Part shown: positions 34,754 through 47,048 of the stretch, piece by piece | Position numbering within the stretch: position 1 is the first letter of the stretch | How the letters are laid out: every line of letters starts with the position of its first letter | NCBI GenBank assembly: GCA_947488655.1 | Contig: CANKZZ010000001.1 | Location: 186,001 to 250,000 of the forward strand | Reading direction: 5' to 3' | From: an uncultured Psychroserpens sp. | GTDB taxonomy: Bacteria > Bacteroidota > Bacteroidia > Flavobacteriales > Flavobacteriaceae | DNA length: 64,000 nt | Translations under genes and position numbers: made by a program | Notes under the pieces: model-generated | What the model saw: only the letters and a program-made list of their open reading frames with translations | Database searches by the model: none | Told to the model about the DNA's origin: nothing

Positions 34754-35668
34754 TCATTCTCTAATTAAAAAAGGTTCAGTAGCATAGATGTAAGAAAGTC
34801 TTTGAGATTTAGATTCCCAACCTTTAACAGATTTATCTATATCGGTTGGACCTAATACAATCCTCACTTTATTAATATTAGCTTTTACTTTAATCTTACA
34901 TTCATACCACTCCTTGTCAATTATCTTAATAGATGCAACTTCGTTTTCAAAATAACCAGTAGACTTCACATCTTTTAAAATCCCATTTTTTAGGTCGAAA
35001 ATAGCATCTACTCTATTAGGATATACACCTGCAACTCTAAACCCTAACGCATTGTTTTCGCTATTTTTTTTAACATAAACAGTAGCTTCAATAGTTTCTC
35101 CCACAGCTATGGTTTGCATATTCATTCTTAAATAAGCTTGCGCTGTAGTAGAGGCTCTTGTGAGCTTTAAAACCTCATTGTCAAGAAACTGTTTGTTTGT
35201 TTCTTGTATTTTTATGCCAATAGCATCAAACTTAGGTTTTTTTCTAACTATTTGTGAGGTATCAATAGTTCGATTTCCTGCTGTTCTAGATTTTTTTTGC
35301 TGCGTACTTCTCTTTACCTCTTCACTTTCTTTAATAAGAATCTCAATGCGGTCCTTTTCGGATTTAATACGCTCCTCAACTTTTAAATATAAACCATCAT
35401 ACGTTTCAATAGAAGCAGCATAATAATTTAGACTAGCAGCAAACTGCAAGCTATCTACATCATATTTAGTATAAATAAATTGTTCTGGAAAAATACCATT
35501 ATTTTCTAACTCCCTTTTATTAACACCTTTAGCAGCATTTAAAATAGAAGTTTCATAAATAATATCAACCATTTTTTCTTCGGAAATGAGATCTTCAGGC
35601 TTCGATACGTTAGAAGAACAAGACATTGATAAAATTAATATAGAAACAAGAAGCGCCTGAAGTTTCAT
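34754..35668 (-). CDS. DUF4296 lipoprotein fused to a C-terminal beta-rich domain
   Basis: This 304-residue lipoprotein has Cys17 in LSMSC. Residues about 24-105 match DUF4296 (PEDLISEEKMVDIIYE at the start, then FIYTKYDVDSLQF). A charged linker follows (KRSTQQKKSRT). Residues about 171-300 form a separate domain whose core (GFRVAGVYPNRVDAIFDLKNG, then WYEC, then IVLGPT) closely matches the C-terminus of the CotH-like protein at 39711-41549. DUF4296 proteins are normally about half this length, so this is a fusion. It is probably outer-membrane-attached. The domain may bind the locus polysaccharide; that is inference. Confidence 0.8.
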   Translation of the reverse strand: MKLQALLVSILILSMSCSSNVSKPEDLISEEKMVDIIYETSILNAAKGVNKRELENNGIFPEQFIYTKYDVDSLQFAASLNYYAASIETYDGLYLKVEERIKSEKDRIEILIKESEEVKRSTQQKKSRTAGNRTIDTSQIVRKKPKFDAIGIKIQETNKQFLDNEVLKLTRASTTAQAYLRMNMQTIAVGETIEATVYVKKNSENNALGFRVAGVYPNRVDAIFDLKNGILKDVKSTGYFENEVASIKIIDKEWYECKIKVKANINKVRIVLGPTDIDKSVKGWESKSQRLSYIYATEPFLIRE

Positions 35669-35688: not shown

Positions 35689-36942
35689 TTAAACAATCAT
35701 TCCTGCAGCAACAGTTTCATTAGTTGTATCATCAATAAGTATAATGCTCCCAGTAGTTCTGTTTTCTCTGTAAGAATCAACCATTAAAGGCTTAGTGGTT
35801 CTTATTTTTACTTTAGAGATATCGTTCATTTTTAGATCCTTATCATCTAAATTACGACCAAGAGTTTCAATATTTATTTTATAAACCACTTCTTTAATCA
35901 TAGCTTTTTGTTCGTTACTTGTGTGGCGAATACTATATTTTGCTCTAGGTTTTGGAGGGTTATTGTGTAACCAACAAAGCATTACCTCTAAGTCTTGTAC
36001 TGGCTCAGGTTTATTGTTTGATCTAACAATCATATCTCCTCTACTAATATCTATATCATCATCTAAGGTGATTGATACAGACATTGGCGCATAAGCTTCT
36101 TCTAAAGCATTCTCATATGCATCTATAGACTTAATTTTTGATGTAAATCCCGAAGGCATAATTGTTACCTCATCGCCAACTCTAAAAACACCACTAGCAA
36201 CTCTACCTGCATAACCTCTATAGTCTCTATGACTTTCATTTTGTGGTCTTAAAACTGTTTGAACTGGAAAACGAGCATCTACTTTATTAATATCACTACT
36301 AATGTGCATTGTTTCTAAGGTATGTAATAATGGAGCACCTTGATACCAATCCATATTTTTAGATCGATTAACTACATTATCTCCATTTAAAGCACTTATT
36401 GGTATAAAACGTATATCATGTACCAATAATTTTGATGAGAATTCTTCAAATTGATTAATGACTTTATTATAAGCCTCTTCAGAGTAATCAACCAAATCCA
36501 TTTTATTAATACATACAATGACATGTGGTATTTGTAATAAAGACGCTATAAATGAGTGTCTTTTTGTTTGTTCAATAACACCATGTCTCGCATCTACTAA
36601 TATAATTGCAGCGTTAGCTGTTGAGGCACCAGTTACCATATTTCTAGTGTACTGTATGTGTCCTGGAGTATCAGCAATTATAAATTTTCGTTTGGGAGTT
36701 GTAAAGTATCTATAAGCTACATCAATAGTAATACCTTGCTCTCTTTCATCTTTTAAGCCATCTGTAAAAAGTGCTAAATCCACACCATCATGACCCTTCT
36801 TTTTACTTGTGTTCTCAATAGCTTGAAGTTGATCTTCAAATATAGATTTAGAATCGTATAACAAACGACCAATTAAGGTGCTTTTACCGTCATCTACACT
36901 ACCTGCTGTTGTAAAACGTAATAATTGATTATTATCTAACAT
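35689..36942 (-). CDS. cysN: Sulfate adenylyltransferase subunit 1 (GTPase)
   Basis: This 417-residue translation-factor-like GTPase has the P-loop GSVDDGKST (residues 14-22), the switch motif DTPGHIQYTRNM and the base motif NKMDLVDYS. It couples GTP hydrolysis to adenosine 5'-phosphosulfate formation by CysD. Unlike many CysN proteins it has no fused APS kinase domain; cysC is a separate gene nearby. cysD ends 17 bases upstream of its start. Confidence 0.96.
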   Translation of the reverse strand: MLDNNQLLRFTTAGSVDDGKSTLIGRLLYDSKSIFEDQLQAIENTSKKKGHDGVDLALFTDGLKDEREQGITIDVAYRYFTTPKRKFIIADTPGHIQYTRNMVTGASTANAAIILVDARHGVIEQTKRHSFIASLLQIPHVIVCINKMDLVDYSEEAYNKVINQFEEFSSKLLVHDIRFIPISALNGDNVVNRSKNMDWYQGAPLLHTLETMHISSDINKVDARFPVQTVLRPQNESHRDYRGYAGRVASGVFRVGDEVTIMPSGFTSKIKSIDAYENALEEAYAPMSVSITLDDDIDISRGDMIVRSNNKPEPVQDLEVMLCWLHNNPPKPRAKYSIRHTSNEQKAMIKEVVYKINIETLGRNLDDKDLKMNDISKVKIRTTKPLMVDSYRENRTTGSIILIDDTTNETVAAGMIV

Positions 36943-36959
36943 TTGCTTAATTTCTCTAA

Positions 36960-37865
36960 TTAAAAGTATCCTTGACGTTTTCTATCTTCCATTGCAGATT
37001 CTGAGCGCTTATCATCACTTCTATTTCCTCTTTCGGTTTGGCGCATACCAGATACCTCATCTGCAATTTTTTCTAAAGTATCAGCATCAGATTCAATGCC
37101 TCCTGTGATTGTTATATCTCCAAGGGTTCTAAATCGTATCTTTTTTGTCACAATTTCTTCATGAGATTCGAGAACTAGAAAATCTGAATTAGGGATCCAG
37201 CTATCTTGCCTCCAAACAACCTCTCTTTCGTGAGCAAAGTAAAGCGATGGTATAGCAATATTTTCTCTTTTTATGTAATTCCAAACATCCATCTCTGTCC
37301 AGTTACTAATTGGAAATGCTCTAAAATGTTCACCTTCAAAATGCTTTCCATTAAAAATATTCCAAAGCTCAGGACGCTGGTTTTTAGGATCCCATTGACC
37401 AAAATCATCTCTATGTGAGAAGAAACGTTCTTTAGCTCTCGCTTTTTCTTCATCACGTCTACCTCCACCAATCGCACAATCAATTTTATTAGACTCAATA
37501 GCATCTAATAATGTTGTTATTTGTAACGCGTTTCTAGTTGCGTTTTTACCACGCTCTTCGGCAACTCTACCCTCATCAATTGATTCTTGTACAGAACCCA
37601 CTATAAGTTTTACACCTAAATCATTAATAATATCATCTCTAAACTGAATTGTTTCAGGGAAATTATGACCAGTATCTACATGCATTAACGGAAATGGAAT
37701 TTTTGCAGGATAAAATGCTTTTTTAGCTAGATGTGTAACTAAAATTGAATCCTTTCCTCCAGAAAATAATATTACTGGGTTATCAAATTGAGCCCAAACT
37801 TCTCGTAATATAAAAATGGCCTCACTCTCTAATTCGTCTAAATAATTTAAATAATACTTACTCAT
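36960..37865 (-). CDS. cysD: Sulfate adenylyltransferase subunit 2
   Basis: This 301-residue PP-loop enzyme has VILFSGGKDSILVTHL (SGGKDS at residues 35-40), VDTGHNFPET, and GGRRDEEKARAKER, all CysD signatures. It forms adenosine 5'-phosphosulfate from ATP and sulfate with CysN. Its start overlaps the cysC stop by 8 bases. No cysH, cysI or cysJ is nearby, so the product is most likely destined for PAPS and sulfation rather than cysteine. Confidence 0.97.
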   Translation of the reverse strand: MSKYYLNYLDELESEAIFILREVWAQFDNPVILFSGGKDSILVTHLAKKAFYPAKIPFPLMHVDTGHNFPETIQFRDDIINDLGVKLIVGSVQESIDEGRVAEERGKNATRNALQITTLLDAIESNKIDCAIGGGRRDEEKARAKERFFSHRDDFGQWDPKNQRPELWNIFNGKHFEGEHFRAFPISNWTEMDVWNYIKRENIAIPSLYFAHEREVVWRQDSWIPNSDFLVLESHEEIVTKKIRFRTLGDITITGGIESDADTLEKIADEVSGMRQTERGNRSDDKRSESAMEDRKRQGYF

Positions 37866-38460
37866 GGTTGAGTTGTAATTTTGGTGTTATAAAATCTACT
37901 ATTCTTTTTACAGAATCTTCTATAGATTCATCTTCGGTTTTTATCTCAATATCAGGTTGCTCTGGAGCCTCGTAAGGTGCCGAAATACCTGTCATATTTT
38001 TAATTTCTCCAGCTCTAGCTTTTTTGTAAAGCCCTTTAACATCTCGTCGTTCACACTCCTCAATACTGGTGTTAATATATACTTCGACAAAGTTAACATC
38101 TTTGACGATAGTTCTTATATTCTCTCTATCTTTTTTATATGGCGACACAAATGCTGCAAAAACAACGAGACCTGCATCTATCATTAAATTAGATATTTCT
38201 GCAATTCTTCTTATGTTCTCTGTTCTATCTTTTGGTGCAAACGTTAAATCGTTATTAATACCCTTTCTAATATTATCTCCATCTAAAGAGTAGGTTTTAA
38301 TACCTGATTTAAACAAGGACTCCTCTACCAAATTAGCTATAGTAGATTTACCAGATCCTGATAAACCCGTAAACCAAATTAAAAACGAATTATGCTTATT
38401 TGACACAACTCTATCTTTTCTTGATACTTGATAATTATGAGGTATAATATTTTCTTTCAT
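37858..38460 (-). CDS. cysC: Adenylylsulfate kinase
   Basis: This 200-residue kinase has the P-loop GLSGSGKST (residues 32-40), DGDNIRKGINNDLTF and FVEVYINTSIEECERRDVKGLYKKA, all typical of APS kinase. It phosphorylates APS at the 3' position to make PAPS, the donor for the sulfotransferase at 33809-34708. It is the first gene of the cysC-cysD-cysN run and overlaps cysD by 8 bases. Confidence 0.96.
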   Translation of the reverse strand: MKENIIPHNYQVSRKDRVVSNKHNSFLIWFTGLSGSGKSTIANLVEESLFKSGIKTYSLDGDNIRKGINNDLTFAPKDRTENIRRIAEISNLMIDAGLVVFAAFVSPYKKDRENIRTIVKDVNFVEVYINTSIEECERRDVKGLYKKARAGEIKNMTGISAPYEAPEQPDIEIKTEDESIEDSVKRIVDFITPKLQLNHE

Positions 38461-38487
38461 GTAATAATTATAAGATATTAAGTGGAA

Positions 38488-38913
38488 TTAAGCATTTCTG
38501 TTTGGTAAACCGTAATTGATTTTATACCAAAAACGCTCATGTAAATAATATAAAAGCATTTTAGTTACCACCTCTGCAAATCCAATTTTTAAACCTGTTA
38601 ACGGATCTCCAGAAATTATCCAAGCTAAAATCATGGTATCTAAGGTACCAATAAATCTCCAGGTAATAGTTTTTGCTATATGTCGTTTACGACTTTCTAG
38701 TACGCGTCCATCTTTAGACAAATTAATTTTAAACCAAACTCTTTCGTGTAAATAATAAAGCAGCATTTTAGTAACAACCTCTGCTAAACCTATTTTTAAA
38801 CCTGTGGTTGGGCTACCAGATATAATCCATGATAAAATTATAGTATCTAAGGTACCTATAAGTCTCCAAGTAATGGTTTTGGCTATATGTCTTTTATGAG
38901 ATGAATCTGCCAT
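38488..38913 (-). CDS. Tandem DUF2061 membrane protein
   Basis: This 141-residue protein consists of two copies of the DUF2061 unit (residues 7-64 and 76-133), joined by an 11-residue linker. The copies are identical at 50 of 58 positions. Each has KRHIAKTITWR, a hydrophobic hairpin and TKMLLYYLHER. DUF2061 is a small predicted membrane domain of unknown function, usually found singly. The gene sits between cysQ (1-base gap) and cysC (27-base gap), inside the sulfation module. A role in sulfate or PAP movement is possible but unsupported by any motif. Confidence 0.88.
   Translation of the reverse strand: MADSSHKRHIAKTITWRLIGTLDTIILSWIISGSPTTGLKIGLAEVVTKMLLYYLHERVWFKINLSKDGRVLESRKRHIAKTITWRFIGTLDTMILAWIISGDPLTGLKIGFAEVVTKMLLYYLHERFWYKINYGLPNRNA
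38515..38688 (-). repeat. Second DUF2061 repeat unit
   Basis: Codons 76-133 of the tandem gene repeat codons 7-64 with 8 amino-acid changes. Many codons differ only at the third base, showing that the duplication is old and the protein sequence has been conserved. Confidence 0.85.
38722..38895 (-). repeat. First DUF2061 repeat unit
   Basis: Codons 7-64 form the first 58-residue unit, from KRHIAK to FKIN, in register with the second copy 207 bases downstream on the minus strand. Confidence 0.85.
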
Positions 38914-38914
38914 T

Positions 38915-39709
38915 TTAGGAGACTAAAAACCATGGGTTTAATAAATTTTCTTTGTTGTATAAAAGTGGTGCATTTGTCTCTTTAGAGATAACATCAACTC
39001 CAACAGCATTACATATGGCCTGACCAGCAGCTGTATCCCACTCCATTGTTGGTGCAAATCTAGGGTAGATGTCGGCATTACCTTCAGCAACGAGACAAAA
39101 CTTTAAAGAGCTTCCTTTAGACACAATTGTTACGTTTTTACCTGTAGATTTTAAATTTTCTACAAAATCTAATGTTTCTTGACTCATGTGCGACCTACTA
39201 CCTACAACTTCTACCTCGTTTGTTTTTTGCTTTGTTTTAAGGGCTTGTGATTGCTCAACAAGGTCTTCTAAGCTTGTATTATGAGATTCTAAATTTGCTT
39301 TGTAAGCTAGATTTGTAGAAACATCTGCAAAATAAAGTGTCTTAGATGCTGGTACATAAATAACGCCTAAAATTGGCTTGCCATTTTCTACTAGAGCTAT
39401 ATTAACAGTAAATTCTCCATTTCTTTTAATAAACTCTTTTGTACCATCTACAGGGTCTACAACCCAGCAAGTTGACCACGTTTTTCTAACATCATAATCG
39501 GTTTGCTTGTTCTCCTCGCTAATTATAGGGATTGTAGTAGGCTCTAAAAACGAATTAATAACATCATTAGCTTTTTTATCTGCCTCTGTAAGTGGTGATT
39601 TGTCGTTTTTATATTCTACATCAAAAGCAGTGTCATACACTTGCATTATAACTTCTCCTGCCTTTAAGCAAGCTTCAATAGCTATCTCTAAATTTCTTTT
39701 TAATTCCAT
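38915..39709 (-). CDS. cysQ: 3'(2'),5'-bisphosphate nucleotidase
   Basis: This 264-residue phosphatase of the inositol monophosphatase superfamily has the metal-binding DPVDGTKEF (from residue 85), SEEN upstream, and WDTAAGQAICNAVG near the C-terminus. CysQ hydrolyses PAP, the inhibitory product of sulfotransferases, to AMP. Its position with cysC, cysD, cysN and the sulfotransferase fits product clearance in polysaccharide sulfation. Confidence 0.95.
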   Translation of the reverse strand: MELKRNLEIAIEACLKAGEVIMQVYDTAFDVEYKNDKSPLTEADKKANDVINSFLEPTTIPIISEENKQTDYDVRKTWSTCWVVDPVDGTKEFIKRNGEFTVNIALVENGKPILGVIYVPASKTLYFADVSTNLAYKANLESHNTSLEDLVEQSQALKTKQKTNEVEVVGSRSHMSQETLDFVENLKSTGKNVTIVSKGSSLKFCLVAEGNADIYPRFAPTMEWDTAAGQAICNAVGVDVISKETNAPLLYNKENLLNPWFLVS

Positions 39710-39710
39710 T

Positions 39711-41549
39711 TTATTTTTCTACTTCTTCAATTTTTAAACTTGAAGGTATTATTAATGCTTCACAGTTTTCTGTAGCTACGCCTTCCCAGTTTTTACTAAT
39801 TTTATCTTTACTGGTTGGCCCTAAGATTATTTTAATAGTGTTAGTTTTAATATTTCCGTAGAGATCACATTGATACCATCCATCTCCCAAAGGAGTCATT
39901 GTGGCTTTAACATTGTCAAAATTACCTCCAGTACTTACTTCTTTAACTGTTCCTTTTTCTAAATTAAATATAGCATCTAATCTATTTGGATATTGACCTT
40001 GAACTCGCAATCCAAAAATGGTACCTGCATCTCCTTTTTTTAATTTAACACTGGTTTTATAATATGCGCCATTATTAACTTTGTTATTAGCAACTACAGC
40101 ATAAGATGACGCTACAGTATTAGTTCTAGATATTCTATAAGCTACTTGTTTATTTAGTACTTGTGATGTTGTAGAGACATTTACTTTATTCTTTACCCAA
40201 AGAGACACATCTGGTATTTTTATATGCTCTATTTTTGGTTCTTCTTCAATAATAATGTCATCTAAGTTATATTTATTTTTGAGACTTATGAGCTCGGTCT
40301 TTAAAAACCCTTGATTAAATTCTAAATTAGCTCTAGAAAACCCATTACTAAAAAATTCTTTTTTAAGTGGCTTCTCAAAGACTGCCATTTCCTTTTTGTA
40401 CTCGGCTATAAGGTTTTGTAAGTACTCTGGTCGTCTCACTTTATCTAATGCATAAGCTAACTCTTTGAGATAGACAGAGTCTTTCTCTTTATCGAGAAAT
40501 AAAAAATGCTCGTACTTTTTTAGTTTTAACCCAGAATTACCATCAAAAGCAATTGGTTCTAATTTTGATGTTATTGGATTGTAGTAAAATCTCAAATTTA
40601 TGATGTAGGTACCATGAGCAGCTCCAAAGAGATTTAAAATAGCATTTTGCATTGCTAATTTTTTTACATCAAATGCTTCATGAATAGGACGTTTATTTTG
40701 ATAAACATCATCTAGTAAATTTCTACTGAGTTTAAAGTATTTAAACATTGTACTGTCTAGAACTACTTTTTCTTCGGAAAATGGTAATATTTGATATTTG
40801 GTCTGAGACACCAAATCGTAATTCATAAATTCTCCCCATTTATAACCTAATGACGAACCCACTTCTATACTCTTACCTACTTCATTCCAAAAATTATCTT
40901 CAGAGAATTTTAAAATGATACTTTCTTTACCACTATTGCTTTCAATGGTTCTTTTATCAAAAGTTTCTTCTAGTGCATAAATGCCAACATTTTTATTGAT
41001 GTCTTGAGATGTTTTTTTGCCTTTAACATGGATTGAGCCTTCTACATAATTATATCTCAAACCCATTAAACCTTCGCGTTTTATAGCTTTTAAATATAGC
41101 CACTCTGCAGTATAGAAAAACCCTCTTGTTTGTGGATGATGAATTGAGAATTTACGCATCCCAAGAATGGTTTCATCCCCTTTGAGTTTAATTCTATAAG
41201 ACCATTTATCGCCTTTAAGATGATCTGTCCAGTCTCCTTTTAGCCTAACCTCAGCATCATAGTTTTTATCTTTATAGGTTACCGTTGCTGGTACATAATC
41301 ATCATCATTGGTTTCTAATATACCTTTACTTAAAGCAGTAAGTCTTTTTTCTTTAATTTTATCAAAAGACTTTTGGTTAAAGGTAAGCTGCAAACCATCT
41401 AAAGTGGTTGTTTTTTCAATCTTAGGTACATTTACAGGATACTTAGGTTGTTTCTTTTCAACAGGGTTAAAAGCAAACAATAGTATAACCAAGCCTAATA
41501 GGCTTAACAAAAAAATTCTAGTAAATGTATTTGAAGATTTAAGCTTCAT
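39711..41549 (-). CDS. CotH-kinase-like protein with C-terminal accessory domain
   Basis: This 612-residue protein has an N-terminal membrane anchor (about residues 10-27). A CotH-like core follows: VRLKGDWTDHLKG (101-113), RKFSIHHPQTRGF (132-144), VGIYALEETFDKRTIES, and the late acidic motif PIAFDGNSG (Asp336). Residues about 475-595 form a domain matching the end of the DUF4296 lipoprotein at 34754-35668 (GLRVQGQYPNRLDAIF, GDGWYQC, IILGPT). CotH-family proteins are atypical kinases known from spore coats. Here the catalytic domain should face the periplasm. The DUF4956 gene ends 3 bases upstream of its start codon, then VTC. The substrate is unknown. Confidence 0.82.
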   Translation of the reverse strand: MKLKSSNTFTRIFLLSLLGLVILLFAFNPVEKKQPKYPVNVPKIEKTTTLDGLQLTFNQKSFDKIKEKRLTALSKGILETNDDDYVPATVTYKDKNYDAEVRLKGDWTDHLKGDKWSYRIKLKGDETILGMRKFSIHHPQTRGFFYTAEWLYLKAIKREGLMGLRYNYVEGSIHVKGKKTSQDINKNVGIYALEETFDKRTIESNSGKESIILKFSEDNFWNEVGKSIEVGSSLGYKWGEFMNYDLVSQTKYQILPFSEEKVVLDSTMFKYFKLSRNLLDDVYQNKRPIHEAFDVKKLAMQNAILNLFGAAHGTYIINLRFYYNPITSKLEPIAFDGNSGLKLKKYEHFLFLDKEKDSVYLKELAYALDKVRRPEYLQNLIAEYKKEMAVFEKPLKKEFFSNGFSRANLEFNQGFLKTELISLKNKYNLDDIIIEEEPKIEHIKIPDVSLWVKNKVNVSTTSQVLNKQVAYRISRTNTVASSYAVVANNKVNNGAYYKTSVKLKKGDAGTIFGLRVQGQYPNRLDAIFNLEKGTVKEVSTGGNFDNVKATMTPLGDGWYQCDLYGNIKTNTIKIILGPTSKDKISKNWEGVATENCEALIIPSSLKIEEVEK

Positions 41550-41552
41550 TTA

Positions 41553-42230
41553 TTAATAGTTTTCGATAAAACTAAATTGTATATCTCCTAAAGTTTTTAA
41601 ATCATTTTTAGCTTTAATAATACTATCAAAATCATTAAACTCAACATTGAGTGAAAGCTCTGTAGAATTATTAGCATCATCTAGTCGTCTCAAATCTATT
41701 TTTGAACAGTGATTTCTAAGTAACTCTAATATTTTGTTTTCATCCAAACCTTTATCTGATGTGTTTGAGATTGTAACAATTAAATTTTGCTGCACTGCTC
41801 TTTTAACAGAATTGTAGTTTTGAATTACTATGTAAAGTATAATTACAATTGCTCCTGTAAGCGTTACAACTCTTTGATTTGCTCCCATACCCAAACCTAG
41901 TGCAATAGCAACAAAAAAGTAAACAAGCTCTTCTGGCTCCTTTATAGCGGTTCTAAATCTTACAATAGATAATGCACCTACAAGTCCTAATGATAATGCT
42001 AATGACGATTTAACAATAGAAATTACTAACATTACCGTTACCGAAATTAACACGAAAGTTTGAATTAATTTTTTTCTATTTGAAAGCGAATTTCCATATT
42101 TAGAATAGACTAAACCAATAATATAGGACAGGATAATTGTTATAAAAATATTAATTAAAAAATCAACAATTGATGATTCTCCAGAACCAAATTGGTTAGC
42201 TAAATCGGTTAAAAAAGATTGTTCTTGCAT
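41553..42230 (-). CDS. DUF4956 membrane protein
   Basis: This 225-residue protein has three to four membrane helices, then the conserved segment LGLVGALSIVRFRTAIKEPEELVYFFVAIALGLG (about residues 83-116). A soluble C-terminal ferredoxin-like part carries VTISNTSDKG and LNVEFND. This is the DUF4956 pattern. Members are recurrently found beside VTC-domain polymerases and CotH-like proteins, as here, and may form the membrane partner of the VTC protein. Function is not established. Confidence 0.88.
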   Translation of the reverse strand: MQEQSFLTDLANQFGSGESSIVDFLINIFITIILSYIIGLVYSKYGNSLSNRKKLIQTFVLISVTVMLVISIVKSSLALSLGLVGALSIVRFRTAIKEPEELVYFFVAIALGLGMGANQRVVTLTGAIVIILYIVIQNYNSVKRAVQQNLIVTISNTSDKGLDENKILELLRNHCSKIDLRRLDDANNSTELSLNVEFNDFDSIIKAKNDLKTLGDIQFSFIENY

Positions 42231-42250
42231 TGTAGTATATTGTTATAGTT

Positions 42251-43009
42251 TTATTGTGGAAATTGTTTTAAAGTATTTATACCGTTTACGTATTTTGAAT
42301 TTTTATTTAATCTAAATGGAAACTGAGTAGATATAGCATACGATTTATCATCATCTAATAAGCCATATTTTAACTCTACAATTTTATTTTCGTCACTTGT
42401 TGGGGCAAAATTAAAATTATTAAATCGTTTATCTATTTTATGATAAAGTAATTTATAATCTAATGTTACTCTAAACTTATTATCTGCAGACATAAAATAT
42501 CGTCTAAAGTATGAATTTAATAAAGTGGGTGTTACCATTCTAGTAGATTCTAAAATAGTTAATGGTAGATTAGATGCTTTAAAAATATTTTGAATTTTTG
42601 TGTTATCAAAATCATTATCTAATACAAACGATTTTAGTTTGTAAGACCACTTATCTCCAACTATCCCTTTTTTAATTTTAATTTCTAATACTGGTTCTTT
42701 TATTTCACCAAAAGTATCTCCATACCAACGTATTCTAACTTTTTTTCTATCAGATACTCCAAGTACATTATCAAAATAGTCGTTATAAGCTGCAGTATCA
42801 AAGTAGATGTTATTAACTTGTCTTAAATGAAAAACCTCTCTAAAAAGAGCTTTATTTCGTTTAATATACTGCTCTATAGTATTTAAAGAAAAGCCATCTG
42901 GTACTGTAAATTTTCTTTCAAACCTATAATTGTTTTTTTCATCAACAAAATGAAGCTCATCGCTATTTGCGATTTCTTTGGCTTGATCTATCAAACTGTT
43001 TTTCATCAT
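42251..43009 (-). CDS. VTC-domain polyphosphate-polymerase-like protein
   Basis: This 252-residue protein has the triphosphate-tunnel (VTC) motifs in order: YRFERKF (28-34), IYFDT (68-72), KVRIRWYG (90-97), EIKIKKG (109-115), VELKY (211-215) and NSKYVNG (237-243). In yeast VTC4 this domain polymerises ATP-derived phosphate into polyphosphate inside the tunnel. There is no membrane helix or SPX domain; the adjacent DUF4956 protein may tether it. It overlaps the beta-helix gene by 4 bases. Activity here is inferred from family; a different NTP-dependent polymer reaction cannot be excluded. Confidence 0.88.
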   Translation of the reverse strand: MMKNSLIDQAKEIANSDELHFVDEKNNYRFERKFTVPDGFSLNTIEQYIKRNKALFREVFHLRQVNNIYFDTAAYNDYFDNVLGVSDRKKVRIRWYGDTFGEIKEPVLEIKIKKGIVGDKWSYKLKSFVLDNDFDNTKIQNIFKASNLPLTILESTRMVTPTLLNSYFRRYFMSADNKFRVTLDYKLLYHKIDKRFNNFNFAPTSDENKIVELKYGLLDDDKSYAISTQFPFRLNKNSKYVNGINTLKQFPQ

Positions 43010-45564
43010 TGTTTTGGTGTATTTCTTGTTTCATCACTACTTACTCCAAACTCAACACCATACATTCTATCTTTTACATTTTGAGTTGTTTCAATCTTTT
43101 TGCTATCAACTATCATTGAAGACGAACTTTCTATCAAATATTTAGTTTCAATTCCTAACATAGAAACATTATTGACCGTTATGTTAGATGGCCCAAATTC
43201 TGGCTTTTTTTGAAATGCAGTAAATCCTAATTTTGTGTTAGAAATTTTTAAGTTTTTAGCTATAACAATTGATAAATCTTTACCTGCAACTGCAATTTCG
43301 CTATTAGAAATATCAACGTTATCAACATCCATTTTACTATTCTCTCCTGCGCTAAGTCCTTTGTCTCCAGCGTTACTTATAGTTACATTTCTTATTATAA
43401 GTGAAGATCCAGAAACATCTATGGCATCGTTGCCTAGCTCATCAAAATTGCAATTTGAGATTGTACCTTGTACATAATCGCCATCAAATGCATCAGATTG
43501 TGTGTTATATAGAGTGACTTGGTCCATTGTAAATTTAGCTCTAACAATATTTAAAGCATCTTCACAGGCATTATTTTTAATAGAGACATTTTGTAAATCT
43601 ACAGGAGATTCATAAAATGTTACAGCACCCGTAACTCCCCAATTAGCATGAGTTGGGTTTCTAAGATGATCAAAAATAACATGTTTTAACTTAGACTTTT
43701 TTTGTTCACTTAGTACTAAAAGCCCTTGCCCTTTTCTGTCTGATGAATATACCTTAATAGGATTTTCTTTAGTACCAATAAATCTTAGTGGCGAATGAGA
43801 AATAATTTTACCTCCTTTTATAATATTGATAATTGTACCTGGTTTAAGTGTAAATGTATAGTTCTTATTTATAACTAAAGGAGAGTCTATTACTATAGAG
43901 TCTTTAGAAAATGATATTTCTTTAGTACTTTCATTTACAATAATATCTCTATGGTTGTTTATATAGGTCTTATTTCTAAAAATATCATCCTCAATATCAT
44001 TATTTTTTTGATACGGAATTATAGAAGATATATGTGTTTTATTTAAGCTGGTTAAGCGATACTTAATTTTTAACTCATTGATATGCTTTGGTAAAACGAA
44101 GCCAATAATTTTTTTCTTTTTACTCACAAAAAGATTTTCAAAACTTCTTGGTAAAGCTATTGTGATGGTGTCCTTTTGTTGACTTTTAATATTAACTACA
44201 GGGTTTAAACTGGTAATTGTTTTATTTCCGAAGTGACTTAATTCTATAATGTCAATAGCATAATTAGAGGTATTAAACACAGATAACACCATCTCTTCAC
44301 TATTTATTGAGATTAATTCAGATTTTAATGCAGACGATGGGTTTAAGCTTTTATTTATAACTCTTTGATTAACTTTTAAAACATCAAAATCGAAGATGTG
44401 ATTAGGATTGCTTTTATTAATGAAAGCAACTTCGTTTTTAAATTGAGCGTTGTTGTTTATAAGAGTTTCGTAAAGATTTATTTTAGACACTTCTTGTAAC
44501 GCTAATCTATAAGATTTTAAATAGTCTTGATTTTCAATTTCTGAAGCTTTTAGATATGATAACGCTTTTTCTCGTGGGCAATTAGACATAGCGTGTAATG
44601 GTTCTAACAGATTAGAATCATCATTAAACACAAAATATTCTATATCTTGGCAATCTTCTACAAACAGTGGTTTTAAAGCATTGTAGTAAGCTAATTTTTC
44701 TTGATTAATAATAGCACCAAATCTCTTCTCGTTGTTTAGATAACTACCTAAAAGCTCTTTAACCATGTTAGATTTCTCGCCATTAAATTCTAATAATTCT
44801 AAAGCAGTATTATCTCTGGTATTAATCTTTTTCCAAAAAATCTTAGGTTTTACAATGGTTATTAAAGTTAAATTTTCCGAAGCAATAAAATCATCAATTG
44901 GTTGGTAGTATCTATTAACCTTTTTATTTTTTTCTTGAAGACTGCTAGGCAAGTATTTTATATCATAAGCATCTAATTGCTTTGTAAATAACGACGTGAA
45001 AAGAAATGGTTCTTTTTCAATCTCATTACTTTTTAACGAGTTAGAAACCTCAACTTTCTCTAATTTTTTAAAAGGTGCATCTAATGTAGATTGCCATGGT
45101 TGATCTATTTTTTTTTGAATCTTGTTTTTAACAATCATTTTCTCTATATCTATAAGAGGTAGTGGCAGTTTGAAAACACCGTAAGTTTTATCATTATTAT
45201 TAAATAAAACTGCATCATTTGTAATATTAAAAGTAAGAAACTCTTTATTTGCCTCTAATAGCGTTTTATTTGATGGGTAAATGTTTACTATAAAATCTGT
45301 ATTAATATGATTATCATCTGGAAAGGTTTTAAAGATTAATAATTTTCTAATAGCATAATCATTTACTGTAGCTGTAAAAAATGTTGAGTCATTTGTTTTT
45401 GCTGTGCCTAAAGCTCTACCGTAATCTAATGGTAATGGGTTTAAGTATTTATTAAAATCTTCATTTAGGTCATGAGTTTTACTGTCTTGGATTGATAAGA
45501 CTAAAGCAACAATTAATAACAAAAATGGAATTCCGATAATGAATTTTGATAGATGTTTTTTCAT
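43006..45564 (-). CDS. Large membrane-anchored protein with C-terminal right-handed beta-helix
   Basis: This 852-residue protein has one N-terminal membrane segment (about residues 8-25). The central region (about 30-520) is unlike any family I recognise. The C-terminal part (about 530-830) shows parallel beta-helix repeats: PLVINKNYTFTLKPGTIINI, SLIIRNVTISNAGDKGL, SKMDVDNVDISNSEIAVAG. Such folds often bind or cleave polysaccharide. It overlaps the VTC gene by 4 bases and is coupled to DUF4956 and CotH-like genes, so it is probably the extracytoplasmic partner of that module. Confidence 0.8.
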   Translation of the reverse strand: MKKHLSKFIIGIPFLLLIVALVLSIQDSKTHDLNEDFNKYLNPLPLDYGRALGTAKTNDSTFFTATVNDYAIRKLLIFKTFPDDNHINTDFIVNIYPSNKTLLEANKEFLTFNITNDAVLFNNNDKTYGVFKLPLPLIDIEKMIVKNKIQKKIDQPWQSTLDAPFKKLEKVEVSNSLKSNEIEKEPFLFTSLFTKQLDAYDIKYLPSSLQEKNKKVNRYYQPIDDFIASENLTLITIVKPKIFWKKINTRDNTALELLEFNGEKSNMVKELLGSYLNNEKRFGAIINQEKLAYYNALKPLFVEDCQDIEYFVFNDDSNLLEPLHAMSNCPREKALSYLKASEIENQDYLKSYRLALQEVSKINLYETLINNNAQFKNEVAFINKSNPNHIFDFDVLKVNQRVINKSLNPSSALKSELISINSEEMVLSVFNTSNYAIDIIELSHFGNKTITSLNPVVNIKSQQKDTITIALPRSFENLFVSKKKKIIGFVLPKHINELKIKYRLTSLNKTHISSIIPYQKNNDIEDDIFRNKTYINNHRDIIVNESTKEISFSKDSIVIDSPLVINKNYTFTLKPGTIINIIKGGKIISHSPLRFIGTKENPIKVYSSDRKGQGLLVLSEQKKSKLKHVIFDHLRNPTHANWGVTGAVTFYESPVDLQNVSIKNNACEDALNIVRAKFTMDQVTLYNTQSDAFDGDYVQGTISNCNFDELGNDAIDVSGSSLIIRNVTISNAGDKGLSAGENSKMDVDNVDISNSEIAVAGKDLSIVIAKNLKISNTKLGFTAFQKKPEFGPSNITVNNVSMLGIETKYLIESSSSMIVDSKKIETTQNVKDRMYGVEFGVSSDETRNTPKQ

Positions 45565-45576
45565 TAAGTATTCTTA

Positions 45577-46452
45577 TTACTTATTTGATTTAAAATTATC
45601 TGTTAACTGTCCTAATCCATTTATATCGTCACCATTTAAATGAATTAATCTAAAACTAACTTGGCCATTTGCCGATATATCAACAATCACAAAATTATCT
45701 CTAACTCCGCCACCCATTCCAGAGCTAACATAAGTTATATTATCATCCTCGTGATAATCATACTCTAAAATATGATCTGCTTTACGTTTTTCTTTAGAAA
45801 ACGCGCCAACGTCTCCTGCAAATAGATAAATTGGTTTATCTATTTCTTTTAACATAGGCTCAATGAGTGTCCAGTAATTAGAATCTGGAGATTTATAATG
45901 TAATGAGTTTGGAAACGGTTTAGGGTAGTTAATATTATGCCACCAAATAACCGGATGTGTAAATATAAATATATTGTCTACGTTGTCTTTTTCTGTTGCA
46001 ATTGCATCTTTAAAAAACTCAAGTTGGTCTCCAGAAATATTCCACTCGTCAATAAGAGGGTCTAATATAATATAAAGGTTCTTTTTATGTACAAAACCTT
46101 TATACGAGTCTCCAAAACGACTTTCAAAATCTTCTAAAACACCATCATGATTTCCTCTTGCAACGTGTATTTTAGGTCTTAACGTGTTTATGTCATTAAC
46201 AACTGCATCCCAAGAAGCAGTTTTTTTAGGGTTCCAAACTAAATCTCCTAACAAAAATCCTAAATCAATAGTACTTTCATTATTGATAGACTCAAATTTA
46301 TCTTTAAATGGTTTGTATAGACCTAAGGGATGGTTTTCGTTATTAGGGTTACCATAAGTATGTCCTGCAATAAAAAAAGAATGCGCTTCTTCTTTTTGTG
46401 TATTGCAACTTATTAAGGTTAACATTAGTACTAATAATACAATTGGTTTCAC
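45577..46452 (-). CDS. Metallophosphoesterase lipoprotein
   Basis: This 291-residue calcineurin-like phosphoesterase has a lipoprotein signal with Cys16 (TLISC). Motifs include LLGDLVWNP (GD motif), ARGNHDG (GNHD motif), FTHPVIWWH and LFAGDVGAF. The first motif is AGHTYG rather than the common D-x-H, so one metal ligand is atypical. It should act in the periplasm or at the outer membrane on a phosphate ester or phosphate polymer. It sits between the beta-helix gene and a pyrophosphatase lipoprotein, in line with phosphate chemistry in the envelope. Confidence 0.85.
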   Translation of the reverse strand: MKPIVLLVLMLTLISCNTQKEEAHSFFIAGHTYGNPNNENHPLGLYKPFKDKFESINNESTIDLGFLLGDLVWNPKKTASWDAVVNDINTLRPKIHVARGNHDGVLEDFESRFGDSYKGFVHKKNLYIILDPLIDEWNISGDQLEFFKDAIATEKDNVDNIFIFTHPVIWWHNINYPKPFPNSLHYKSPDSNYWTLIEPMLKEIDKPIYLFAGDVGAFSKEKRKADHILEYDYHEDDNITYVSSGMGGGVRDNFVIVDISANGQVSFRLIHLNGDDINGLGQLTDNFKSNK

Positions 46453-46454
46453 AA

Positions 46455-47048
46455 CTATTTTAAATTTTTATTTATTTCTGCTATAGCTTCTTTTTCGGTT
46501 GCCCAGCCTTCAATTTGAGTTTCATCGTCTTTATTGTAATTTAAAAACCATATCTCAATTATTGATTTTATCTCTGGATAGTCTCTATTAAACTCAACAT
46601 AACTTTTACAGTTTATTATTTGATGTTCCTTATCACTAGGAATCGCAATAATTTTATAATCTATCTCTCCATCATCAATCAACTTTAACATTGCAATTGG
46701 TGTGCTCTCTATTACAGTACCTGTTTCTAAATACTCTGCCAGGACTAAAATATCTAAAGCATCTCCATCTCCACCTTCTTTTGGGTCAGAGAATGTTGAT
46801 GGTATAAACCCATAATTTCCTAAATAGGGTAAAAAATTAATAACTCTATCCTTACCATTCTTTTTATCAATATTAAAGGTCTTAGTTTTATTATTATATT
46901 CAAACTTCTTGTTGGTTCCTGCAGGAATTTCTACCACTGCGTTTACCTTGTTGTTTTTAGAAAATGTACTAACACCATAATAATCTGTAGTAGTTTTACA
47001 AGATACAAAAAGTAAGCAAAGACAATATATCATTAACACCCTCATCAA
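46455..47048 (-). CDS. Inorganic pyrophosphatase-like lipoprotein
   Basis: This 197-residue protein has a lipoprotein signal peptide with Cys17 (LFVSC) followed by a type I pyrophosphatase fold: VVEIPAGTNKKFEY (38-51), LGNYGFIPSTF (76-86) and the metal site DGDALDILV (94-102). The canonical motif is DxDPxD; Pro is replaced by Ala here, but all three Asp are kept. Normal pyrophosphatases are cytoplasmic. An exported form next to a VTC-like polymerase and a phosphoesterase suggests degradation of pyrophosphate or short polyphosphate in the envelope. Either of two adjacent Met codons could start it. Confidence 0.87.
   Translation of the reverse strand: MMRVLMIYCLCLLFVSCKTTTDYYGVSTFSKNNKVNAVVEIPAGTNKKFEYNNKTKTFNIDKKNGKDRVINFLPYLGNYGFIPSTFSDPKEGGDGDALDILVLAEYLETGTVIESTPIAMLKLIDDGEIDYKIIAIPSDKEHQIINCKSYVEFNRDYPEIKSIIEIWFLNYNKDDETQIEGWATEKEAIAEINKNLK

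Follow-up and report, generated by a model that had tools for sequence, protein, structure and literature searches.

A conserved VTC, DUF4956, CotH-fold and beta-helix gene set as a candidate envelope phosphotransfer module in Psychroserpens and other bacteria

A tightly packed, operon-like run of minus-strand genes in a 64,000-nucleotide stretch of an uncultured Psychroserpens sp. (Flavobacteriaceae; GCA_947488655.1, contig CANKZZ010000001.1, positions 186,001 to 250,000; hereafter the window) encodes a VTC-like triphosphate-tunnel polyphosphate polymerase domain, the integral membrane protein DUF4956, a CotH-fold kinase-like protein and a right-handed beta-helix protein. These four core parts are inherited together, and their sequences, folds, linkage and setting mark them as a real and conserved form, apparently not described before, of a gene association that is known but has no explanation yet. 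Tentatively, we favour the possibility that they form a conserved envelope phosphotransfer module, in which polyphosphate made by VTC would pass through DUF4956, the CotH-like enzyme would phosphorylate an envelope polysaccharide and hydrolases would clear the pyrophosphate.

Linkage and distribution of the core genes

VTC was detected in 25 of the 249 genomes of a family survey and the beta-helix protein in 16, and in all 16 the beta-helix gene lies less than 1 kb from VTC (co-occurrence, Fisher 3e-19). A phylum sample of 392 genomes contained three strong beta-helix genes, including that of the window, each of them beside VTC (3/3). Among 62 loci with good flanking sequence, seeded by VTC or the beta-helix and counting some genomes twice, 59 have DUF4956 nearby and 57 have VTC. 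The VTC, DUF4956 and CotH-like genes stand side by side in the window and in its relatives, where DUF4956 - kinase/beta-helix - VTC is the usual order, and pairwise distances correlate between the four parts (r 0.74-0.88). A wider collection of 80 loci spans Bacteroidota, Planctomycetota, Poribacteria, Omnitrophota, Latescibacterota, Calditrichota, Krumholzibacteriota, Ignavibacteriota, Neomarinimicrobiota, Pseudomonadota and others; many of these loci come from metagenome bins, and individual phylum assignments may be in error. Carriers that can be cultured include Dokdonia sinensis, Dokdonia pacifica and Pareuzebyella sediminis.

The general setting of the kinase-beta-helix loci is polysaccharide synthesis. 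The 118 neighbouring proteins in Bacteroidota include eight sugar-nucleotide epimerases or dehydratases, five initiating sugar transferases, five Wzy-type proteins and several glycosyltransferases. Glycosyltransferases also top the neighbour list in other phyla, but ABC transporters are about equally frequent there and the polysaccharide signal is weaker. Loci with VTC and DUF4956 but no beta-helix, termed type A (L029-L036, L043, L047 and L054), have no polysaccharide family in the 25 commonest among 119 neighbour proteins; they encode a 230-250 amino acid outer-membrane-barrel-like protein and, in most cases, a canonical CotH lipoprotein.

That VTC, DUF4956 and CotH-like genes recur together had been correctly stated in a preliminary description of the window, made from the letters alone. 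The trio has been published as accessory genes of Gram-positive Pel loci, for which a regulatory role was proposed [PMC7112168], and is present in Streptococcus intermedius as SIR_1592-1594, with a canonical-type CotH [PMC12345266]. The NELoc-2 locus of Clostridium perfringens also holds the trio [PMC2879425] if, as we read it from size and position, its '226-aa tubulin/FtsZ' gene is DUF4956. The S. intermedius study reports no such three-gene synteny away from Pel loci [PMC12345266]; a form of it is widespread here, and the loci concerned showed no Pel genes, although no Pel-specific search was made. A search of open-access papers turned up no account of a kinase-beta-helix version outside Pel.

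The four core proteins

The calls of VTC and DUF4956 in the preliminary description were borne out. The VTC gene (42251..43009, minus strand) matches Pfam PF09359 at 1.2e-23 (84.4 bits against a cut-off of 23), and a profile built from 48 relatives recognizes yeast Vtc4 (3g3q) with an E-value of 7.8e-10. The protein has no membrane segment. A loss of tunnel residues incompatible with nucleotide binding, named beforehand as a finding that would refute the proposed system, is not seen: the basic and acidic tunnel residues are intact, and K33, R63, R88, K90, R92, R94, E109, K111, K120, R169, R180, E212, K214 and K239 are invariant in 48/48 sequences. R92 and R94 align to the HRLRWYG segment of Vtc4 and, on our own reading of the alignment, probably correspond to R264 and R266, two of the residues changed in the Vtc4 mutant R264A/R266A/E426N, the structure of which has been solved [PMC9911596]. 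The window VTC is the only one of its genome, and a role as a storage polyphosphate enzyme is unlikely because PPK1 is encoded elsewhere in that genome. DUF4956 (41553..42230, minus strand; Pfam 2.7e-22) has, by hydropathy, a hydrophobic N-terminal half and a soluble C-terminal part, and carries the conserved basic residues K74, R91, R93 and K97. By analogy with yeast, where Vtc4 couples synthesis to translocation [PMC9911596], it is a putative polyphosphate conduit.

The kinase-like protein (39711..41549, minus strand; 612 amino acids), assigned by model and profile, is membrane-anchored and consists of a transmembrane helix (residues 8-27), a CotH-like domain (49-424) and a domain resembling a carbohydrate-binding module (CBM; 440-612). 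Pfam has no match for this protein or for the 852-residue beta-helix protein. The Pfam CotH family PF08757 does not match the kinase-like protein in a genome-wide search even at E 10, the only match being another gene on contig C4; a canonical CotH (PF08757, 1.5e-69) of the same genome is located on this separate contig (C4:267117-268109, locus L055). As a PDB sequence search with the kinase profile was also without a match, kinship with CotH was examined through the fold and through a profile comparison with canonical CotH proteins. In the AlphaFold model (predicted local distance difference test score, pLDDT, 94) residues 49-424 superpose on Bacillus cereus CotH (5jd9; Z 26.2, 320 aligned residues, root-mean-square deviation 3.3 Å), and the clean kinase profile reaches canonical CotH proteins, down to 1.6e-16. 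Residues 440-612 adopt a CBM-type fold (Z 12-20), with alginate- and porphyran-binding modules at Z 12.5 and a phage baseplate protein at Z 20.

Arg102, Lys104, Gly105, Glu194, Glu195, Asn318 and Asp336 are conserved across 55 divergent kinase domains. The Asp336 position, occupied by Asp in 49 and Glu in 5 of the 55, aligns with the metal-binding Asp251 of CotH. His312, present in 54/55, is aligned with the catalytic Asp228 of CotH or lies at most two residues away, the exact register being uncertain; CotH is inactivated by the D228Q exchange [PMC7821199]. The earlier call of a CotH-like kinase hence stands for the fold but not for the Pfam family or the catalytic Asp, and on the predicted structure the protein would belong to the CotH kinases by its fold and not by its catalytic base. 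It may well work like a kinase.

The beta-helix protein (43006..45564, minus strand; 852 amino acids) was delineated by alignment to fused relatives and by its model. It had been described as a surface protein; the beta-helix is confirmed, but surface placement is doubtful, and a single N-terminal membrane helix (residues 5-28) makes it more likely that the protein is anchored in the inner membrane and periplasmic. A decayed CotH C-lobe (about residues 268-410) aligns with the C-lobe of the kinase, whereas the N-lobe and the active-site His and Asp are lost. The right-handed beta-helix follows at about residues 535-830; in the model (pLDDT 89) residues 524-829 are closest in fold to the alginate epimerase AlgG (4ozz, Z 27.6 over 273 residues), and AlgE epimerases match as well. 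An Asp/Lys ladder of the beta-helix is invariant across phyla.

Domain architectures were counted with kinase and beta-helix profiles built from trimmed seeds. Of the first 16 beta-helix loci found in the family, seven encode kinase and beta-helix as a single protein, and most of the 80 loci of the wide collection do so too, at a length of about 860-1015 amino acids; since they are one protein in most relatives, they would be expected to act together. The ten split rows form one clade (98/88), in which the 852-residue type of gene retains the beta-helix beside a decayed kinase, and the kinase itself resides in a second gene. The nearest relatives of this clade in the tree are fused, and the split label needs three changes. 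The tree thus indicates that the split arrangement in the window is derived, its beta-helix protein being one half of what was once a kinase and beta-helix fusion. Two kinase-beta-helix genes each occur in loci L118 and L133 and in one Agaribacillus genome (L061/L093). Loci L050 (6608-8119) and L051 (6436-7983) encode proteins of 503-515 amino acids between the DUF4956 and beta-helix genes that resemble a very divergent CotH; comparison of these proteins with CotH by hhalign gave no significant score.

Accessory lipoproteins and the polysaccharide locus

All open reading frames of the preliminary description are present on the minus strand at the coordinates given there, and its tight run is confirmed, neighbouring genes being spaced by 1-20 bases or overlapping (VTC and beta-helix, 43006-43009). 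Positions 38488-47048 hold eight genes, not the seven first counted, when the DUF2061 tandem protein and CysQ are included. Two accessory lipoproteins were correctly placed in the pyrophosphatase and phosphoesterase families, but not next to cysQ: their genes form the upstream end of the run, beside fcl (47056), and cysQ adjoins the kinase gene at the opposite end.

The family I inorganic pyrophosphatase (46455..47048, minus strand; Pfam PF00719, 1e-32, 113.5 bits against a cut-off of 23.5) conserves a lipobox, from which its export is predicted, and the active-site motifs EIPAGTNKK, NYGFIP, DGDALD and DDGEIDYK. The divergent metallophosphoesterase (45577..46452, minus strand; a weak Pfam Metallophos match at 5.6e-6) keeps GD, GNHD and H, but the motif-I Asp is replaced by Gly, Ser or Ala and GHxH by GDxG, which leaves the five-motif set of metal ligands incomplete; its chemistry is uncertain because this Asp and the last GHxH are lost.

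Linkage of these enzymes to the trio, proposed in the preliminary description as a new feature, does exist in relatives; its absence, which had been named as a refuting outcome, is thus not observed. The lipoprotein pyrophosphatase occurs in 21 of the 249 family genomes, nine of them beta-helix genomes (9/16; Fisher 2.8e-7), and in all nine it lies in the cluster, adjacent to VTC. Membership of the core is nevertheless not supported: among the 62 loci the pyrophosphatase is found in 22 and the phosphoesterase in 21, and neither can be essential as they are missing from most loci. The pyrophosphatase was rejected as a core part for this reason and because 12 genomes carry it without VTC, elsewhere in the genome. 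Seven of these 12 have it in a miaB-topA neighbourhood, the gene lying between miaB and topA in L158-L161, L166, L167 and L169. On the pyrophosphatase tree the 'linked' label needs four changes. Both enzymes are recurrent, lineage-specific accessories.

Around the run, family matches or reading of the sequence identify fcl-, gmd-, rmlB- and rmlD-like genes, a Wzz-like protein, a Wzx-like flippase, a sulfotransferase, cysDNC, a UDP-sugar dehydrogenase and glycosyltransferases, which mark the surroundings as a sulfated-polysaccharide locus. No Pel genes are among the annotated neighbours in the window, which are Wzx/Wzy-type, nucleotide-sugar and sulfate genes, although Pel-specific models were not used. 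By annotation, cysN, cysD, cysC, the DUF2061 tandem protein and cysQ (35689..39709, minus strand) belong to the setting and lie outside the core. Sulfation as part of the system was rejected, since cysN lies within 10 kb in only 4 of the 62 loci, all close relatives; the cysDNC linkage and sulfated-locus setting are a lineage trait. CysQ itself (38915-39709, minus strand) is recognized by NCBIfam at 3e-80, and the DUF2061 protein (38488-38913, minus strand; Pfam/NCBIfam annotation), two tandem copies inside the cys operon, is kept in L042, L045 and L049. A lipoprotein with DUF4296 (NCBIfam NF048003) and a CBM-like domain (34754..35668, minus strand) is possibly associated: this domain resembles the kinase C-terminus (35% identity, E 4e-22), and the two exported proteins of the operon may bind the same glycan.

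A possible mechanism, its alternatives and related systems

The source of adenosine triphosphate (ATP) for CotH is an unanswered question [PMC7821199], and the donor supply of kinases outside the cell membrane is an open problem to which this gene set offers a direct, testable answer. We hypothesize that VTC would convert ATP to polyphosphate in the cytoplasm and feed it across the membrane through DUF4956, in the way that yeast Vtc4 supplies the Vtc1 channel. On the outer side, where ATP is not expected, the CotH-like enzyme would use polyphosphate as donor to place phosphate on an envelope or secreted polysaccharide. Polysaccharide is the proposed target because the beta-helix and CBM-like domains point to it, and the beta-helix, together with the CBM-like domain in the genome of the window, would hold it. 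In some lineages, the lipoprotein pyrophosphatase and phosphoesterase would remove leftover pyrophosphate and short chains; an exported family I pyrophosphatase makes sense if polyphosphate is consumed stepwise down to pyrophosphate. The genome has PPK1 for storage and, on contig C7, a housekeeping pyrophosphatase, distinct from the lipoprotein enzyme, for removing pyrophosphate in the cytosol. The polyphosphate-to-glycan idea of the preliminary description is a plausible hypothesis on these grounds. A bolder version, a widespread extracytoplasmic glycan kinase system in many phyla that runs on exported polyphosphate instead of ATP and combines a His-based CotH-fold site with an AlgG-like beta-helix, is more doubtful. 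If phosphotransfer is true, DUF4956, seldom named in the open-access literature, would gain a function, bacterial VTC would be used beyond storage, and phosphorylation by polyphosphate would join the known decorations of bacterial polysaccharides.

Several points weigh against phosphotransfer. The activity of every part is predicted, a channel role of DUF4956 is only what we infer, and with a His at or beside the position of Asp228 the kinase-like protein may lack kinase activity. Most loci have neither the pyrophosphatase nor the phosphoesterase as a constant member, and part of the correlation between distances reflects shared ancestry alone. The only tested trio deletions, those of S. intermedius, keep Pel, and no effect of a VTC deletion is described [PMC12345266].

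The intact VTC tunnel, the exported phosphate hydrolases and the linkage to polysaccharide genes would also suit exported polyphosphate as the end product. It would then be an extracellular polyanion, either attached to the capsule or mixed into it; the CotH-like and beta-helix parts would anchor it or terminate its chains, and the hydrolases would trim it. We consider this unlikely, as it has no need for a CotH-fold enzyme with a conserved metal-binding Asp336 (49/55). To our knowledge, family I pyrophosphatases also do not cut long polyphosphate chains.

It is somewhat less likely still that the target of the CotH-like enzyme is a protein of the polysaccharide machinery, whose phosphorylation would control synthesis, a role suggested before for the CotH of Pel loci [PMC7112168]. 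The CotH substrates known so far are proteins [PMC7821199], and Pel amounts do shift in S. intermedius, where loss of DUF4956 gives more and loss of CotH less Pel, both with less aggregation [PMC12345266]; the fusion to an AlgG-like beta-helix and the CBM-like domain nevertheless point to a glycan. A non-kinase activity of the CotH-like enzyme, for instance nucleotidyl transfer releasing pyrophosphate that the linked pyrophosphatase clears, would account for His312 and for the pyrophosphatase in 22 of the 62 loci, but appears improbable, given that there is no obvious nucleotide source outside the membrane, that most loci lack the pyrophosphatase and that the His-to-Asp alignment is uncertain by one or two residues. 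Least probable is that the enzymatic work falls to the beta-helix, with its AlgG-like fold and invariant Asp/Lys ladder, as a lyase or C5-epimerase of the polysaccharide, and that VTC, DUF4956 and the kinase-like part control it or give a phosphate signal, which leaves an obligate polymerase-like VTC with a full tunnel unexplained.

The phosphotransfer module that we favour resembles several known systems in part. The Gram-positive Pel-locus trio brings these three families together beside polysaccharide synthesis genes, and its function is unsolved there too; in contrast, the CotH of the present set is divergent and comes with an AlgG-like beta-helix, either in fusion or as a partner, the exported pyrophosphatase and phosphoesterase are extra, and Pel genes are not among the annotated neighbours. 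Type A loci of the same family have homologous VTC and DUF4956 (about 27% identity), adjoined in most by a canonical CotH, but neither a beta-helix nor polysaccharide genes among their commonest neighbours. The yeast VTC complex (Vtc4/Vtc1/Vtc3) likewise places a triphosphate-tunnel polymerase with conserved tunnel residues alongside a membrane partner, whereas the window VTC is a separate small protein without an SPX domain, and DUF4956 stands in place of a Vtc1-type membrane domain. The spore-coat kinase CotH (5jd9, 5jda) shares the fold and the equivalent of the metal-binding Asp; the window protein differs in its lack of a Pfam CotH match, its His at or beside Asp228, its membrane anchor, its CBM-like domain and its beta-helix partner. 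Finally, the AlgG and AlgE mannuronan C5-epimerases share the right-handed beta-helix (Z 25-28) and the expected periplasmic placement at about 10% identity, while most relatives of the window protein carry the beta-helix in fusion with a CotH-like domain.

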